Below the pieces are notes generated by a model. It ran no database searches and was not told where the DNA came from. It saw only the letters and a list, made by a program, of their open reading frames with translations. DNA of 64,000 nucleotides from Schizochytrium sp. TIO01. Its lineage: Eukaryota > Sar > Bigyra > Thraustochytrida > Thraustochytriidae. The stretch spans positions 7,088,668 through 7,152,667 of the forward strand of contig SMSO01000032.1 of the NCBI GenBank assembly GCA_004764695.1. The letters run 5' to 3'. Position numbers and translations under genes: made by a program. This document shows, one piece after another, positions 7,977 through 34,300 of this stretch. The number at the start of each line of letters is the position of its first letter. Positions within the stretch are counted from its first letter, which is position 1.

Positions 7977-10085
7977 TTAGTTTTCGATGTCATGCACGAA
8001 AGCTTCTTGACAATCAGAGTTGGGAAATGTGACCACCTTGAATGTGGGATTAACCTCTGCAATTTTCTTGAGCCATTCATTGCAGGCACCACATGGCTCA
8101 ATAGGATTGCGTTCGCCAGCAAAGCGAGAGTTGTTGCCATTTCCAGAGTAAACACTCAGAGATGAACTCTGACTACGCGGTCGTCGGTAGTTGCGTCGCG
8201 GTGAGGGTGGTTTACTGCCAATGCTTGTATCCACTTTACCCTGCGTTGCTAAGGACGATGGGGATGGTGGGACCGTTAGGGTGCTCATTGTTGTTTTTGA
8301 CCGCGGAATTTGCGCAGAGACAGGGCGCAAGAGGGGGGAGTGTTCAGGTGTTGTGCTTGCAATTGATAGTTGAGAAGGCACAGCTCGGATTGAAGATCCC
8401 ATGTCCGCACGCATATGGTCTGGGGTCAAGGTCCTTGCTGTTTGAAACTCAATATCTGCTGCAGAGTGGTTCTCACGTAACGAAGAAGGGGCATTCGTTT
8501 GAGTTGGCACATTATCTAGTGCCACAGAAAGAACTGTTATGTAGCGAAAGTCCTGGCGACGAAGGGTTTGGTTAGAAGCTAGGGCTGTACCAATAACATT
8601 TCGCTCTGCGCAGAGGGATCCTGTCGGAAGTGATACCTCCAGATTCATACCACGATAGAATCGCGGCTCCCTATCGCCTGGTGCCTGAACCATGAGGACC
8701 GAAAGAACAACTTTGCGAGATTTGCGGAGCCAAAAGTCCTCCATATCGCGTAATTTACCGGCGCGCTTAGCTTCGATAAACTCTTGCTTGTACTTTCTCA
8801 TCTCCTCCACGGCAAGACGACAATCTGGCTCCAGGTCTGCGATTGGAACAGGCGGCTTGGTTTCCATCGTCTCAAAAGTCTGGAAAATTAAATCCGAGCC
8901 TAAAAACTTTAGCTCGTACCAAAACGACTTGAGTTGCCACATGTGGAGGTAGTTTGGGCGGTATTGTCGAAGGGAAGCATTCAAAGCAGCGAGGCGGGCA
9001 GGTGACCCATCCGTGAGTGCTACGGTCATGCCAAGACGCTTTTGCCATTGATTACCAAACCGAGAAACAAGGGGGTTGCGGATCTGATTCACAGCAGGTA
9101 GTAAGACATCATTGCAGAAGCGTACATTTTGATCATAGTGAAAGATATCCAAGCCTGAATCAAGACATGTTACTTCCACACTGGGGCATGTTCTCTCGAT
9201 AAATAGCTTGATAATCCGCGCAGCAGCTTTTGTAGAATTCGACTCAATTGGTAGAGCACGGTTGCGTGGAGTGCCGCATCCGCTCACAAGAATAACAATT
9301 TTGTGTGTTTCCTCGTCTGGGCCTAAGGTTGTATCTGCATCTTCGCCTTCCACAATGCCCAACCACGTGAACAAGAGCTGAGATACCAGAGGTAGCATAA
9401 TTGAGCAGACTTGGGGAGGTTTTGCGCACACAGCTGGGGCCTGCGACAGGTCCAGACCGCCTGCATCATTAGTCTTCACAGAAAGCGATCCCCATGAGTC
9501 TTCTTCTACAGCGTGCTGGGAAAAGTTGAATCCCACCGGCAGGATTACGCCGCTCCCGGTCATGCTAAGTAGCGAATGGGTTGATGCAGCCGAGTGCAAA
9601 GACATATGGCGATGTCCATTGCACTCTTCACGAGCGTGGACTAGTGCAGCTCCTGCAGCAACTGCGGCATTCGTTTGCGCAGGGCTCATAGTTCCTGTAA
9701 GATGCTCGCCGCTTGGAGTCCTGGTAAGTCCAGAAGATCGCCGGCGATCGAGTTCTTCTTGATTAGGGTCATGTTCGCAGTCGATAATAGATGCATCATC
9801 GCCGAGGGCAAGAAGAGCGTCTTCAATTTGCAATGTAAGCGGGTAGAAGCGATTGAATCTAGGTCTCGCTAGGATTTGCGTCGAGGCCACATCCTCCATG
9901 CTTGTCATGTTCTGCAAATCTTCTTGTTGTAAATCCCTGTTGACCCCCACGATCACGTCCACATGAGATACATTGTATACTAGAATTTGCACGTTGCTAG
10001 CATTCTCCAGCTTCAGTGGAGGAGCAGGTGCGTTTGTAGCAGCCGCAAGAACGGCCGTCTTGGCCGACTGGATTGTCGGCTCCAT
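7977..10085 (-). CDS. Cytidine-deaminase-fold protein with N-terminal Rossmann-like region (702 aa)
   Basis: The C-terminal part carries the hallmarks of the CDA-type zinc deaminases: LCAERNVIG at 491-499 (Cys492 as zinc ligand, Glu494 as the proton shuttle) and PCGAC at 664-668 (Cys665 and Cys668 as the other zinc ligands). All catalytic residues are kept. In ordinary tetrameric cytidine deaminases these motifs lie about 30 residues apart; here they are about 170 apart, split by a Ser/Pro/Thr/Arg-rich, probably disordered insert (about 530-655). Residues 260-400 alternate strands and helices, starting with HKIVILVSGCGTP, as in a Rossmann-like ligand-binding domain. Residues 110-220 are low complexity. 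A free-cytidine deaminase is usually near 130-150 aa, so a plain salvage enzyme is unlikely; the substrate may be a nucleoside, a nucleotide or RNA and cannot be told from sequence. The start is the only sensible ATG. Confidence 0.8.
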   Translation of the reverse strand: MEPTIQSAKTAVLAAATNAPAPPLKLENASNVQILVYNVSHVDVIVGVNRDLQQEDLQNMTSMEDVASTQILARPRFNRFYPLTLQIEDALLALGDDASIIDCEHDPNQEELDRRRSSGLTRTPSGEHLTGTMSPAQTNAAVAAGAALVHAREECNGHRHMSLHSAASTHSLLSMTGSGVILPVGFNFSQHAVEEDSWGSLSVKTNDAGGLDLSQAPAVCAKPPQVCSIMLPLVSQLLFTWLGIVEGEDADTTLGPDEETHKIVILVSGCGTPRNRALPIESNSTKAAARIIKLFIERTCPSVEVTCLDSGLDIFHYDQNVRFCNDVLLPAVNQIRNPLVSRFGNQWQKRLGMTVALTDGSPARLAALNASLRQYRPNYLHMWQLKSFWYELKFLGSDLIFQTFETMETKPPVPIADLEPDCRLAVEEMRKYKQEFIEAKRAGKLRDMEDFWLRKSRKVVLSVLMVQAPGDREPRFYRGMNLEVSLPTGSLCAERNVIGTALASNQTLRRQDFRYITVLSVALDNVPTQTNAPSSLRENHSAADIEFQTARTLTPDHMRADMGSSIRAVPSQLSIASTTPEHSPLLRPVSAQIPRSKTTMSTLTVPPSPSSLATQGKVDTSIGSKPPSPRRNYRRPRSQSSSLSVYSGNGNNSRFAGERNPIEPCGACNEWLKKIAEVNPTFKVVTFPNSDCQEAFVHDIEN

Positions 10086-25953: not shown

Positions 25954-28289
25954 GACGGCAATAGGTGTCGCCAATCCTGTTGACTCTGTACTGCGCAGAG
26001 GCCTCTATCATCATTGAGAAAGTCGATCTCACGAATGAAACTTGATCTTGCATTTCTGAGGGATTGGATTCGAAACCCTCTTCACAATGTGACCATGGGC
26101 TTCGAGGTAGAACTTCAAGCTCGCTTTGAGCTTGAGCTTGAGCTTGAGGTCGTGCCGCCGCAAATTTGGAGCGAAGTCTGAGGTGATTGGTTGAGAATCC
26201 GCATCTAATTCTTTGTGGAGGCTGCTCATGGCGCCGCTTAAAGTTGGCTGATAGAAGCACACGCTCGCACGCTCAATCCCTCGTAGCTCGCTCCCTCGCT
26301 CGTGCCCACGACGCACGCCGAAGTTGGCAGGCAGCAACACAGCCAGGGAGGGAACCCAGCTCCCACTCGCTGCCCGTGCGGAAGGAGCGGAGGATCATGG
26401 AATTCAACTTGAACTTCGCAAGATGAACTCGCACAGAACCCAGAGCAGAACAGAGCACGACCAAAACGTAGGTTGGGTAGGTGCTTAGGTCCTTTCTTAT
26501 CACTGCGATGTGCGAACCTGGATGAGTGTGAGGGATCTGGCAGTGAAGCCTGCAACCATGACTACTCAAGCTTGCTCTCGCCTCCAAGCGCCCGCTCAGT
26601 CGAGATTCTCGATCAAGAGACCACTCCCGTACTGATCTGATTCTGCCTGGTTTTAGTAAACTCAAGTGCTCTCGCATCGACCACTCTCAGATTGCGCAAC
26701 CCCAAATTCAAAAACAAACAGAACGTTCTGATTTTAGGGAAGAACATCGGAAAAACACCAACGTGGCTGATGTGTGGGTGGTTCCTTTTCTTCAGCTAGA
26801 AGATAATCAATCTTCAAGTTGTAATAAGCATCATGGCCATCATGGCCTCTGCCTTTGCTATGGCCTAGGAGGAGGCAACTTGAATATCTCGTCAGTACAG
26901 CATATATACCGTTGTCAAAGAGCAAACAATGAGATTGGGGTTCCTGCCAAAAACACGCCAGGCTAGTGCTAAGTGCTGCAGCCGTGGACGGTGGCTGCTC
27001 GCATCGTCCTGAAATCCAATAACTTGAAGCGAAGTATGACCTTTGGAAGCAGATGCCACAGAAAAGGTGTTACAATGGAAGGCGACGGCCAATCCCGCTT
27101 ACTTTCACGGCTCGCTTGGCAACCAGGGACTCTGTGAGCAAGAGTACCTACCGAAGTAGTGAAAAGGTGAAGAAGTGCTTCTCAATCCACCAGCACTTCT
27201 CGACGCCAACGCTGCCCCACCAAGGATGAGCTGCAAGCGCAGTATTAGCAGTTATTGGTTTCAGACTCGAAAGTTGTATTATATTGAGACCCAGCAAATC
27301 GGCCAACGCCGCCATTGACAGCACCTCGAGGTTGAGCGACTTTGTGAATATGGCCTCTATGAAGCCGAGCCTTTTAGCGTCACTTGGGAGCTGGTGTTGT
27401 CCTCTCCCTTCAACTTAGACCTTGCTCCATCCTCTACCTTGTAACCTAAACAGACTTGAGTCCTGGGCCCTGGTCACGCAATAGTAACTAACCACTACGT
27501 GAGTTTCATCCCGGCGATTCATGTTTTGTTTACATAACTTGTCAAAGGACCCATGCATCTTGCCATCGTTAAGTTGTCAATGATGCTAGATCGTTGTCTT
27601 GTCACCAGGTGTGCATCTCATCACTCTAATAAAGCATTCCTTTCTCTTGATCGCTCTCACTCTAGCTTGTTAAGTCTGGTACCGGCCCTGTGTCGTGTCA
27701 GTCCACATCCACTTGGATTGCGTGCATGGACAAATCCTCTGTACCTGCCATCATCCTTGTGGCCGCCGTACAATGGCAATCTGATTTTCTCGCTATCCCA
27801 AAGCCAACTCATATGTAAATTCATAAACGGTCTATCAAGAGGTCTATCCACTCTATTCGTTTGCAGTGTGCGGCTCTCATGTCCCCCACCCGCGAGTTGC
27901 CACTTGACTAACGAAATGGACTACTTGCTCGCTCTCCATTAGAAGCACCTTCAATTCAGGCGATGATATTAATATTAGCCTGTGTTGGCACGGGGCTTGC
28001 CAAGTGGAGTATAGTCCGTATAAGTAACTTTATCAGCAGTATATTTCATTTAGAGGCAGGTATAATGTACTTTGGGTACTGGATATTTCACTTGTGGCCA
28101 GGGCAGTGAGGCGCTAGTCGGTCGCGAGCAGACTTGGCGCTGCGACGATTCGCTGCGGCGGTGGAGAAGCAAAGCCACTGCGCCGAGGCGTAGGGCATAG
28201 CCTTGGATACATCGTCACTCATTGGTTGAGCTGTGGAAAGTGCAACGGAGTAGGTGTCGTCGGGCCCGCGTGGGGCGGGAATTAGCTGG

Positions 28290-28966
28290 ATGTGGGGCCG
28301 CTCTCACAGCAGCAATACCCTGAACACGCCTGACGATTTTGGGGCGCAACACATTCGCCCGGACTCTGTATCCTCATCTCAAGATTGGGGTAATGGAGAT
28401 GTAGTTTTCGTTGACAGCGACGACGATGTTGAGGACCTGGAGGATGCCACCAAATTTGGCGATGATGACGGCAAGCAATTTGCGGATGAAGATCTTCAGC
28501 AGGCAGCTCAGCAAGACCATGCCTATCTTCATGCGCAACAGCAGCAGGTTATGCAACACTCAGGTATGCCAGGGCAGTTTCAAAATGGTCATTTTCAACA
28601 CCAACTAATGATGGATCAGCAGCGAAGGCTACAGCAGCAACTCCATCTCCAACAGCAACAACAACAGTTCTCTCACCAGCACTTAGATCACTTGCCACGA
28701 GCCCCGAGCAACCAGTTTGCGATGAATATAAATACCACTTACCAGTCTGGCCCGGATAATCACCAGGGTCAGATGAACCCGCCATCTTTAGCTGCAGCCC
28801 CTGGAGGACTTCAGTCCAACCCGGTGCAAGGACATCCAGCTCTACAAACACCGCAGCCACTGCAGCAGCAGCAGCAACAGCCACTGCAGCAGCAACAGCA
28901 ACAGCCACTGCAGCAGCAGCAGCAACAGCCACTGCAGCAGCAACAACAACAGCAACAGCAGCAGCC

Positions 28967-29054
<88 letters not shown>

Positions 29055-31679
29055 CTGCAGCAACAACTGCAGCAACAACAGAAGCAACAACAGCAGCTAC
29101 AGCAAGTTAAACGAGAAGATAAAACTGCACGTCAAAATCAAGACAAACCGTTAACACAGCCGGTGAGTAACGCAAAATCTAGTATTAGCGTTGATGCTCC
29201 TACCTCAGTTTCGTCAAAATCTGGATCTTTATCTATGTCTTCCTCATCTGCCTTGCCTACAAACCCGCCAAAGGTGAATGGTTCGCAGGTGCAGCCCGAC
29301 ACTATCAAATTTAGTGCAAAACCTGAGGTCAGGCAGTCGGCGTTCAAAAAGCAAAGTGCATCAGCCGCGTTTACAAACAATCCTACGTCTTCATCTTCGA
29401 CGTCATTTACATCAAAGGCCTCTGCTTCTCATGTCTCCTCTTCAGCAGCCCTGGCCTCCAGTGAAGATTCAACAAAGGGTACCAAAATAGACGCAAAACC
29501 AGCTAAAGCTAGCAAACCTGAGCAGCCCGCAATGCGTAAAGCAGAGGACATTGCCGCAGATGCACTTTGTGGTGCTATTGGCCTCGATGTTCAAGATTTG
29601 TCGCAATCTCCTAGTGCCCCCCTCTCATCTACCCCAACATCTCTGGCAAGTACCCCGGCAAGGCAAGGTCCTTCGAATCCTGGTTTCACTGCAAATATCC
29701 CTCACACAATAGATACATCAAAAATGTCCTCGGAGCAGGAAATCATCGATCTTCATGGAGCAGTCCAGATGACCGGTACCTGGAACCCAAAAGCTATGAA
29801 CTGGACTGGAAACTGGTATCAAACAGATCTTCCAGAGATCGACGCTCCCTTTGAATATAACCCACTTCCTGCCGAAGTTGATGCAGAGATGAATGACATG
29901 CCTTGCGAAGTATGCAAAGGTTCTGATGCCGAAGGCTTCCTCTTTTGCGATCTGTGCGACCGAGGCTTCCACATGTGGTGTTGTGGTGTTAATAAAGAAC
30001 CCGCTAAAGACGAAGAGTGGCACTGCAAATCATGCCAAACCCTGCTTGAGCGTTTTAAGGTGCAACTTCCCCCAAGTCGCCGTTGGTCAGGCTGGTTCCG
30101 TATGTCTAAGAAGGCCAAAATGAAAGGTTATCAATACAAGGAAAAGTTCAAAGTACATTTCCACTATGCAGATCGCTCTCCAGATCTTAACCACATTGCC
30201 AGATTTGACGGCAAGGGAACAAACCGCTATGGCACGTTTCGCTTCGTTGGAGATATGACCTATGAAAATGGCAAAATTGTCCTCCGCGCTCGCAAAACAT
30301 ATTACCGTGAACAGGTGAAGCGGAAAAAGTCACCTACAGGATTGGGCCGCAACCCTCTCAAACTGAAAAAGAATTCCGACTCTCGCTCTGTCTCGCCCGT
30401 TGGTCCAGACTCCCCAGGCTTTCGTTCGCCCACGCATGCTAGCGAGTCACGCACGAATAGTTCGTCAACTCCAGCTCAAGACAACACGGGCAGCAACAAC
30501 AAGCCGCATCACCTAAAACGTGCTGAGTCGTCAAGCTCAATTGCTCGCTCTATCCAGGACCAACCTCAGCCCCAACAAAAACGTCGTGCATCTGTGCTGC
30601 AAGTTCCTGTAGGGGCAGACTTCGACAATAGCAGTGCTCTTGGGACCAATGCGGGAAACACTATCGGTGGAAACAGCAGCAACAATCAGAGTAGCAGTAG
30701 TATTAGTCTTAGCTCTTCTCGCCCTGCAAGCAATTCCTTTTTTGTTGATACAAATGATGCTCGCAAGCTCACTTTGGCACTGAAGATTGTTTCTCAAGAG
30801 TTAGATCGTGTACGGGGCCCAAAGACCACACTTGTTGTTACGGATATGGATTGTTCCCTGTTTCTTGGAAACAACGACCGTAATTCCAAGCAGCAATCTA
30901 CTAATCTTGCACTCCCTCAGGTTTGGAGCTATGTTTCTAGCCTTTCAGGAAATATGAAGTGGATCTCCGAGGTATCTCGTGGCGGTTTAGAGGTTGTCTT
31001 CAAAGTTCACTCTCATAAATATCTCACGAAACTCATGCGTAAGGTCAAGCATGATGACGAACTCAACATTGATTTAACAGCAGCCTTGAAAGCTTGCGGT
31101 GCTATTTCCACCGCCATATCTAGTATTGTTTCTGATGCCAACGAGGTCCCACACTTGCGTCTTCCCTCGCGTAAAGTTCCTATTGCAAGTAATGCTCTTG
31201 TTTTAGCCTACCCTGAGAGTGGTATGACAGGTCGTGCTGGACCCATCTCTGACGCAACGATCTCCTCCGCTGCTTTATCCGAAGCTAGTGTGATCAATTA
31301 CGTAGCGCATGGAGCGATTCATGCACGCGACTTGCTGGACAAACGGGTAGCTATCCTTTGTTTTGAGCCAGCGCCAGGAACAGAAGAAATTGTCAAAGAT
31401 ACAGATATTTTCTTTGCTTCCGTGCACGCTACGAGCCGCATGGAGTGGCTCGAGAAGCTGCGCCCAGCGCTTGAGAAGCTACGCGATTTCCGCCCGTCTG
31501 TGCTTATCGTCTCCCAAGCCTTTGTAGCACCACCAGAGTGCATTCCCGGCATTGTACGCAAGTTGACTCTGGATCTTCTTAGCATCTGTACTCAGCTCAT
31601 CTCTGTTGTTGAAAAGGTAGAACCGCATCGTAAGGATCACCTTAAGGCACACGTTGAAGCACTTCAAGCATCAGTTTAG
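28290..31679 (+). CDS. PHD-finger protein with polyglutamine tract and catalytically dead HDAC-like C-terminus (1129 aa)
   Basis: The first ATG after an in-frame stop at 28251 is at 28290; its context is weak, so an upstream non-coding exon is possible. An acidic N-terminus (DSDDDVEDLEDA) is followed by a Gln-rich tract at about 190-272. A PHD finger follows with all eight ligands in Cys4-His-Cys3 order: C539, C542, C553, C556, H561, C564, C579, C582. PHD fingers read histone-tail marks, so a nuclear chromatin role is likely. Residues about 845-1129 follow the order of the arginase/histone-deacetylase fold: KVHSHKYL, LKACGAISTA, RLPSRKV (957-963, where deacetylases have RPPGHHA), RVAILCFEPAPGT (1019-1031, where they have a DxDxHHGNGT motif), FFASVHA and RPSVLIVSQAF. 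Every catalytic His and zinc Asp is replaced, so it should be a pseudoenzyme. The PHD call is firm; the HDAC-fold call is my alignment by eye. Confidence 0.82.
28857..29106 (+). repeat. CAG/CAA glutamine-codon repeat with 24-bp subrepeat
   Basis: Inside the PHD gene, four copies of a 24-base unit coding for PLQQQQQQ are followed by pure CAG and then pure CAA runs and a looser Gln-rich tail. It encodes about 80 mostly Gln residues. The mix of a minisatellite with two trinucleotide phases suggests recent slippage. Confidence 0.95.
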
Positions 31680-33019: not shown

Positions 33020-34300
33020 CTACTCGTTAGCAGCAGCAGACGAAGAGGGAGCGGGTGGCATGGAAAAACGGTACAGGGTGAATTTAGTCTCCGCGATTTC
33101 AGGGAAACGAAGAGGAAAGCTAGCGGCGGCCTCTGTAAACGGATCCTCCAAATATGCACTAGGAGCTGGGCGAGAATCCGTGGTAAAGCCGACCTTCTTC
33201 ATTGCAGTCACAAACTCCTTAAGACCAGCACGATCATCATCTGCAGAAACGTAAAAAAAGTCACCTCCATCCCGGAGAAGCGAACGCACGACACTAACAA
33301 GGGGCGTAACAAGCTCAAGATCGTAAATCAAATCAGAGCCGATGAGAATGTCGGTCTGGCTCAGGAGGTCTTCGGGCCAGGTTGCCTCATCCTTCCAATC
33401 CAACGCGTGAGCTGTGAGCTCCGCACCTTCACGGCGACCCTCGTGCAGGCCAACGTTGTGTTCGGTATTGGGGAAGGTTGGCGAATCAAGGTCCGAAATA
33501 ACAACACGTTGGGCATCCGTGCACCGATAGGCCACGACACCAGGGAGGCCACATCCAGCGCCAAGTTCACAAACCACCTTTCCTGCAAAGAAGTCCTTTT
33601 CGTCAATGATCCACTTGCCAAGCGCGAGAGAAGCGGCCCAAAGAAATGCACCAGTGGTCTTGAGGTCGTCCGTATTACGCGAAGTATCAAGGAGGCCAAC
33701 CTCTCGAATCTCCAAAGAATTGCCTCCAAATTCACAGACGCTCTGCGAAGTTTGGAGCTGTACACCTTGGTCCTCTGAAGCTCCGTCTTGACCTTCGCCT
33801 TCTTCTTCCTGGCCATCCTCGGTAGTTCCATTCTTCTTGCTCTGCTGCTCGAGTTTCTTGGCACTTGGGTGGTTGAGCACAGCCTCCACGATGGTTGCGT
33901 TCTCGCTGTCAATGGCAAGAGTGACGCTAGACTTTTTGTTATCGTTTTGCTCCAGAACATCAATCTCAGGAACATCACGAATCAGCGCCAGAACTGCGCC
34001 CTCCTGCTTGTTCTCGAGTGCCCAATGCAAGGGCGTATTTCCAGCACGGTTCCTGGAAAATTTAGCCTTCTTCTCCTTGACCAGAAACTCGATGATTCGC
34101 ACGTGTCCATTCGCTGCCGCCATGTGCAAGGCTGAGTTCTGGTCTCCATCCACAAGGTCTGCACTCAAGTCGGGCACCATTTCCCACAGAAGGTGAAGGT
34201 CCTCAAGCTCGTCGTACCGAGCGCACTCCAGAACATCATTGGTGGCGGCGGCTTGGTCCTCCGCCGAAAGCTCTGTAAACTTGCGACCCATCGCTGCCAT
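33020..34300 (-). CDS. Ankyrin-repeat protein with family-16 (METTL21-like) methyltransferase domain (426 aa)
   Basis: The N-terminal third holds about three ankyrin repeats; the clearest are NSALHMAAANGHVRIIEFLV (55-74) and NTPLHWALENKQEGAVLALI (88-107). An acidic linker (about 160-182) leads into a seven-beta-strand S-adenosylmethionine methyltransferase of family 16. Visible motifs are TGAFLWAASLALGKWI (216-231), the SAM-binding motif I CELGAGCGLPG (244-254), the acidic end of strand 2 (ISDLD, 268-272) and GSDLIYD (321-327), which carries the D-x-x-Y signature of this family. Known members methylate lysines on chaperones, elongation factors and other single proteins. The ankyrin part may select the substrate, which cannot be told here. 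All key residues are intact. The ATG at 34300 has a good context (gagATGG). Confidence 0.9.
   Translation of the reverse strand: MAAMGRKFTELSAEDQAAATNDVLECARYDELEDLHLLWEMVPDLSADLVDGDQNSALHMAAANGHVRIIEFLVKEKKAKFSRNRAGNTPLHWALENKQEGAVLALIRDVPEIDVLEQNDNKKSSVTLAIDSENATIVEAVLNHPSAKKLEQQSKKNGTTEDGQEEEGEGQDGASEDQGVQLQTSQSVCEFGGNSLEIREVGLLDTSRNTDDLKTTGAFLWAASLALGKWIIDEKDFFAGKVVCELGAGCGLPGVVAYRCTDAQRVVISDLDSPTFPNTEHNVGLHEGRREGAELTAHALDWKDEATWPEDLLSQTDILIGSDLIYDLELVTPLVSVVRSLLRDGGDFFYVSADDDRAGLKEFVTAMKKVGFTTDSRPAPSAYLEDPFTEAAASFPLRFPEIAETKFTLYRFSMPPAPSSSAAANE

Follow-up and report, generated by a model that had tools for sequence, protein, structure and literature searches.

Known pseudo-deacetylase domains and the layout of the gene

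Pseudo-deacetylase domains in the literature examined lie within the histone deacetylase (HDAC) family proper. The closest precedent for the domain described here appears, by analogy, to be the pseudo-deacetylase domain of HDAC10, which, according to excerpts of the report on the zebrafish structure, is devoid of zinc ligands, catalytic residues and the loops L1-L5, packs on the active domain partly via highly conserved helices, and contributes to an assembly said to resemble the HDAC6 and Clr3 assemblies (PMC5454378). A further likeness is offered by the class IIa HDACs (HDAC4/5/7/9), in which the HDAC domain is described as serving recruitment more than efficient catalysis; the excerpts used here describe these domains as pseudo-HDACs that recruit SMRT-HDAC3 (PMC4498904) and discuss class IIa HDACs as possible acetyl-lysine readers through the pseudocatalytic domain (PMC12383505). 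The pseudo-domain of HDAC10 follows an active deacetylase domain on the same chain, whereas the domain studied here follows a PHD finger, and the Pfam scan of the 1141-aa ORF gave no Hist_deacetyl match that would indicate an active deacetylase domain. The original prediction had regarded a PHD finger joined to a pseudo-deacetylase as unknown from other lineages. No PHD–pseudo-HDAC fusion was found among the matches listed in the open-licence PMC literature; pseudo-HDAC domains as such are known from HDAC10 and the class IIa enzymes.

The gene is located in a window of 64,000 nucleotides, which is the whole stretch of DNA analysed and to which all coordinates below refer (+ strand unless marked otherwise), and the assembly searched comprises 64 Mb in 37 contigs. 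It consists of one open frame (28254-31679) that is stop-free over 3.4 kb. Starting from the first ATG at 28290, the gene (28290..31679, stop codon included) encodes 1129 aa, while the mechanical ORF from the GTG at 28254 has 1141 aa; the residue numbers of the original prediction fit the 1129-aa protein. By eye, the N-terminal half is rich in Q and S and looks disordered. It is followed by a PHD finger (29904..30035; residues 551-594 of the 1141-aa ORF), which is the sole confident Pfam domain of the ORF (PF00628, E 7.7e-7, 29.5 bits vs a cut-off of 24), by an unnamed domain, and by the HDAC-like C-terminal domain. As read from the genomic DNA, the PHD finger and the C-terminal domain share one ORF, in frame and with no stop between them, so that the predicted fusion of the two is borne out. 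Pfam matches in the gene content include PHD, Syf1 and Mpp10, on the basis of which we regard the assembly as eukaryotic. The convergent neighbour gene (33020-34300, − strand) combines ankyrin repeats with a Methyltransf_16 lysine methyltransferase domain, and an ORF at 7977-10085 (− strand) carries a C-terminal LmjF365940-type CDD/CDA-like deaminase domain (E 1.1e-55).

The nearest solved PHD fingers in the PDB comparison include those of MLL3, BAZ2A, ATXR5, DPF2 and KAT6A/B, several of which read the unmodified H3 tail. The PHD fingers of DPF2, KAT6A/B, BAZ2A and ATXR5 have a CDxCDRGxHMxC-like core in common with the one described here, but are combined with other domain partners. Because several of its nearest solved relatives read this tail, it is a fair guess that the PHD finger would also read the unmodified H3 tail. 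Directly after the PHD finger lies the unnamed domain (30042..30314), characterised by the motifs WSGWF and GxGxNxxGxFxxxG, for which neither the Pfam scan of the ORF nor the PDB comparison gave a match. It resembles a 261-aa open frame of the same genome (L013, at C5:1417283), and the C-terminal part of the domain matches this frame with 35.8 bits, a score reached by none of 200 shuffles. With L013 as query, the own genome yielded C24:540961 (E 4.2e-5), the PHD gene (E 0.015) and two more weak matches. A possible first half of the unnamed domain is found upstream of the PHD finger (WTGNW, within 29733-29879), where it pairs with WNGNW of L013 (18.5 bits). The PHD finger might therefore be inserted inside the unnamed domain, which we treat as a possibility because this match comprises 7 residues and its score is reached by 2 of 200 shuffles.

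Homology of the C-terminal domain to histone deacetylases

The C-terminal domain (30813..31676, roughly 290 residues) gave no Pfam HDAC match, even with the limit raised to E 10, and its single hit, to VMAP-M19 (E 0.0017), which lay below the cut-off of that family, was treated as chance. A phmmer search of the PDB with E values up to 10 returned two sequences only. Both are acetylpolyamine amidohydrolases, which belong to the HDAC superfamily, and HDAC10 chains were absent from the matches. The amidohydrolases matched in two pieces in the right order and places, with E values of 1.1-1.2 that are not significant alone. Profile comparisons gave a far stronger signal. When the domain was aligned using hhalign with the 10 HDACs of its own genome, a probability of 96.5% was obtained (E 7.6e-10 for one comparison, 210 columns), and similar values resulted for the trimmed own-genome HDAC domains (96.3%) and for a set of 88 HDACs (96.2%, score 71.3, 211 columns), which consisted of the 10 own-genome sequences and 78 bacterial sequences from a scan of prokaryote genomes. 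Within the 317-aa segment, the hhalign match spans residues 30-272, and the MAFFT alignment reaches the C-terminus.

Several controls were used to evaluate these scores. Against the 88-HDAC profile, the reversed sequence scored 15.5, and none of 200 shuffles of the segment exceeded 25.7. In the ORF control, the gene scored 80.9 and the best of 357 other ORFs 39.5 (probability 53%). The 358 mechanical ORFs compared were drawn from the window and the bacterial loci with a minimum length of 200 aa; many of them are not real genes, and frames bearing HDAC motifs had been taken out beforehand. With hmmsearch, the whole sequence scored 20.3 bits against the class II subset, where none of 1000 shuffles exceeded 2.7, and 19.6 bits against all 88 HDACs, where none exceeded 5.0, while the best single stretch reached only 7.8-8.3 bits. 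Among the retained stretches is VHSHKYLT (31005..31028), which corresponds to the VHxxxYL of the HDACs.

Counts of individual columns are less informative. At columns with at least 90% conservation, the domain keeps 13 of 52 family residues, and shuffles aligned likewise (n = 100) keep 13.0 on average, which gives no support to the notion that invariant columns were preferentially lost. Hydrophobic residues occupy 54 of the 67 variable hydrophobic core columns (0.81; shuffles: mean 0.69, sd 0.05, maximum 0.82), and the commonest residue is matched at 23 of the variable core columns (shuffles: mean 15.0, maximum 23). A binomial p of 4e-10 calculated for the hydrophobic core was withdrawn, since shuffles aligned likewise already average 0.69. 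Invariant columns are thus kept at chance level while the profile match far exceeds chance, and because aligned shuffles keep as many invariant columns, homology rests on the profile scores and not on the column counts. Both hhalign and hmmsearch place the domain well above its shuffles and hhalign also above the 357 other ORFs, so the HDAC-likeness proposed originally is upheld, and the view that the domain is by descent a member of the HDAC superfamily largely holds on these sequence comparisons. A single-sequence AlphaFold model of the domain was poor (pLDDT 36.5); the arginase/HDAC fold is accordingly a prediction from the profile matches.

Loss of the catalytic site

Eight catalytic and zinc-binding positions, which we take to be those of HDAC8 H142, H143, F152, D176, D178, H180, D267 and Y306, were compared in one MAFFT alignment, in which the domain reads G, M, A, C, E, gap, V and gap and keeps the family residue at none of them. 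All eight family residues are kept by 9 of the 10 own-genome HDACs, which were found by Pfam regardless of motif, and by all 78 bacterial HDACs. The latter were retrieved by patterns that covered RPPGHHA and DxDVHHG, followed by a GHHA filter, so their agreement at these two sites is partly by construction, because the set was chosen on those motifs.

The MAFFT alignments agree with the original prediction on two of the three sites it had named. CFEPAPG (31359..31379) occupies the DxDxHHGNG position, with the first Asp replaced by Cys, the zinc Asp by Glu and the zinc His deleted; the best BLASTP piece with the own-genome HDAC L008, on the other hand, sets PAPGTEEIV on a later loop, off the DxDxHHG site. 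QAFVA (31515..31529) stands at the AGFDA position, where the zinc Asp has become Val. For the RPPGHHA site, RLPSRKV had been proposed, and this assignment has become doubtful. RLPSRKV is set there in both hhalign alignments made with the 10 own-genome HDACs alone, whereas five other alignments, namely BLASTP with L008 (second piece), hhalign against the 88 HDACs and three MAFFT alignments, one of which (A4) was built with 37 bacterial HDACs, favour YPESGMT (31209..31229) and leave RLPSRKV within an insertion of approximately 15 residues. The YPESGMT register, in which the catalytic His pair is replaced by Gly-Met, is preferred because its flanks match (SNALVLAYPESGMTG vs RNVFCAVRPPGHHAG). Both catalytic His residues are absent in either register.

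The changes extend beyond those named in the original prediction. Compared with the family, whole blocks of the active site are absent, comprising 9 columns in the PDT loop, 24 columns in the loop from YPGTG to NVPL and 14 columns around GGY, in addition to gaps of 2 columns at the zinc His and four of 1-3 columns each. The 14-column block, which in the family holds the final strand and the catalytic tyrosine of GGY, is missing at a junction at 31629..31634. Because these loop blocks are absent, the active site was removed as a whole, beyond point mutation. The HH pair, DxDxH, the GFD Asp and the GGY Tyr that mark an active zinc-dependent HDAC are all missing, and with every one of the eight positions examined changed or deleted, the predicted loss of zinc ligands and catalytic His is confirmed. 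Class IIa HDACs retain zinc and most active-site residues, whereas the domain described here is left without zinc ligands. The SMRT-binding rim of class IIa HDACs lies, according to the excerpts cited above, at the catalytic entry (PMC4498904), a region that is deleted or rewritten here. The domain agrees better with the pseudo-domain of HDAC10, as excerpted, which has likewise lost its zinc ligands and catalytic residues along with the loops of the active site (PMC5454378); here, zinc ligands and loops are lost and the core is kept, although the core stands only modestly above the shuffles.

Origin, proposed role and rival explanations

The own genome contains about 12 HDAC loci (15 matches). 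Ankyrin repeats were identified in three of them (L007, L008 and L017) and a PHD finger in none when the main open frames were scanned; these three differ from the gene described here, which has a PHD finger. The class II enzymes L007 and L008, which unlike the domain keep the catalytic residues, are its best own-genome pairwise matches, with BLASTP scores of 38.5 and 35.0 bits, respectively, exceeded by the bacterial HDAC L028 with 38.9 bits. BLASTP against the full L008 frame gave an E value of 1e-5, and the two have SRMEW in common, preceding the FxPxxxIxS strand. The insertion of the domain after the HHA position is of nearly the same length as that of L008 and longer than that of L007. 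In a maximum likelihood tree of the domain with 10 own-genome and 20 bacterial sequences, the domain is the neighbour of L008 (ultrafast bootstrap 89) and has a branch length of 2.39 substitutions per site. The AU test keeps six of the seven trees compared, including a grouping with other own-genome HDAC classes, and rejects only the tree that places the domain among the bacterial sequences (p 0.049). An origin by duplication of an L008-like gene is therefore favoured but unproved. A search of the own genome for a paralogue of the domain found the gene itself only, and a search of viral contigs gave four stretches that fit a pattern and no relatives.

We propose that a degenerate, non-catalytic HDAC domain derived from class II was joined to a PHD finger and the unnamed domain and serves as a docking or dimerisation module, a reading to which we assign a probability of roughly 0.6. 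The ancestor would have been a class II HDAC resembling the ankyrin-type HDACs of the own genome, and the domain would then have lost the zinc site and the active-site loops while the remainder stayed recognisable. The remaining helical face would pair with an active class II HDAC or a corepressor, and the PHD finger, which resembles readers of the unmodified H3 tail, would position the complex on chromatin. A docking rather than an enzymatic role is probable because the catalytic machinery is lost, and with the loops gone and the helices apparently kept, binding to such an HDAC or corepressor seems the most economical solution. To regard the protein as a non-enzymatic chromatin module, as originally suggested, is a reasonable inference. 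More tentatively, it could be a protist adaptor in which a PHD finger and a loop-stripped pseudo-HDAC pair with an active class II HDAC in trans, where HDAC10 does so in cis, alongside a second pseudo-HDAC of the same genome (L015, see below).

The alternatives differ in what the domain would still do after these losses. It might have kept a ligand-binding role, with a zinc-free pocket that reads acyl-lysine or a metabolite in the manner of class IIa HDACs, whose discussion as acetyl-lysine readers in the excerpted source (PMC12383505) lends this some appeal, as does the PHD finger as a second reader on the same chain. However, the vertebrate class IIa change amounts, in that source, to one tyrosine replaced by histidine (PMC12383505), whereas here the pocket-forming loops and every zinc ligand are gone, and by this analogy such a pocket would be less likely than docking and, taken on its own, rather improbable. 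The domain could instead be the functionless, drifting remnant of an HDAC fusion that was once active, in a protein that works via its PHD, Q-rich and unnamed domains, in keeping with a branch as long as 2.39 substitutions per site and with invariant columns kept no better than in shuffles. Against this, no stop interrupts the frame before its end, and a relic without constraint is unlikely because profile similarity persists over about 211 columns at such a distance.

That the domain is not a homologue but another Rossmann-like alpha/beta fold that merely resembles HDACs is highly improbable. The missing direct Pfam HDAC match, the poor single-sequence model (pLDDT 36.5) and the varying register at the HHA site would be expected in this case, but the match is collinear over about 210 columns, lies far above the shuffles and the 357 other ORFs, and takes in VHxxYL, the helix before the DxD strand, GTEEI, FFASVH and FRPxxLIVS. 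We consider it barely conceivable that the domain is still an enzyme with a different metal site or chemistry: the sole candidates for such a site are the Glu that replaces the zinc Asp and the Cys that replaces the first Asp, while the zinc His and the catalytic Tyr are absent, the GFDA zinc Asp is Val and the His pair is Gly-Met. If the docking role is true, binding could by itself be the reason for which an HDAC fold is retained, and a stand-alone, loop-stripped domain tied to a histone reader would allow a clean test of the surface by which the fold binds. A Pfam family scan can miss a pseudo-HDAC domain of this kind, as it did here, and therefore more of them may be hidden in protist chromatin proteins.

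Three further HDAC loci of the own genome differ from the usual form. A second pseudo-HDAC (L015:2452-3411; G000:C6:1332451-1333410) is recognised by Pfam with 171 bits and has its catalytic motifs replaced by GGMNHA, NLSGVH, GGGL and GGNGS, with one His of the pair kept. In the tree it groups with L002 and L003, which we take to be class I-like from their motifs, and L015 presumably with them. The HDAC at L017 (G000:C3:1633006-1634129) is split among three open frames, preceded by ankyrin repeats and followed by a PAH, the paired amphipathic helix domain of Sin3 type, a combination of ankyrin, HDAC and PAH that is unusual to our knowledge. Finally, L016:2633-4021 (G000:C32) contains about 165 extra low-complexity residues in the HDAC just before the DxDxHHG strand; the catalytic residues are kept and the frame is open, and the extra stretch may be an in-frame intron.
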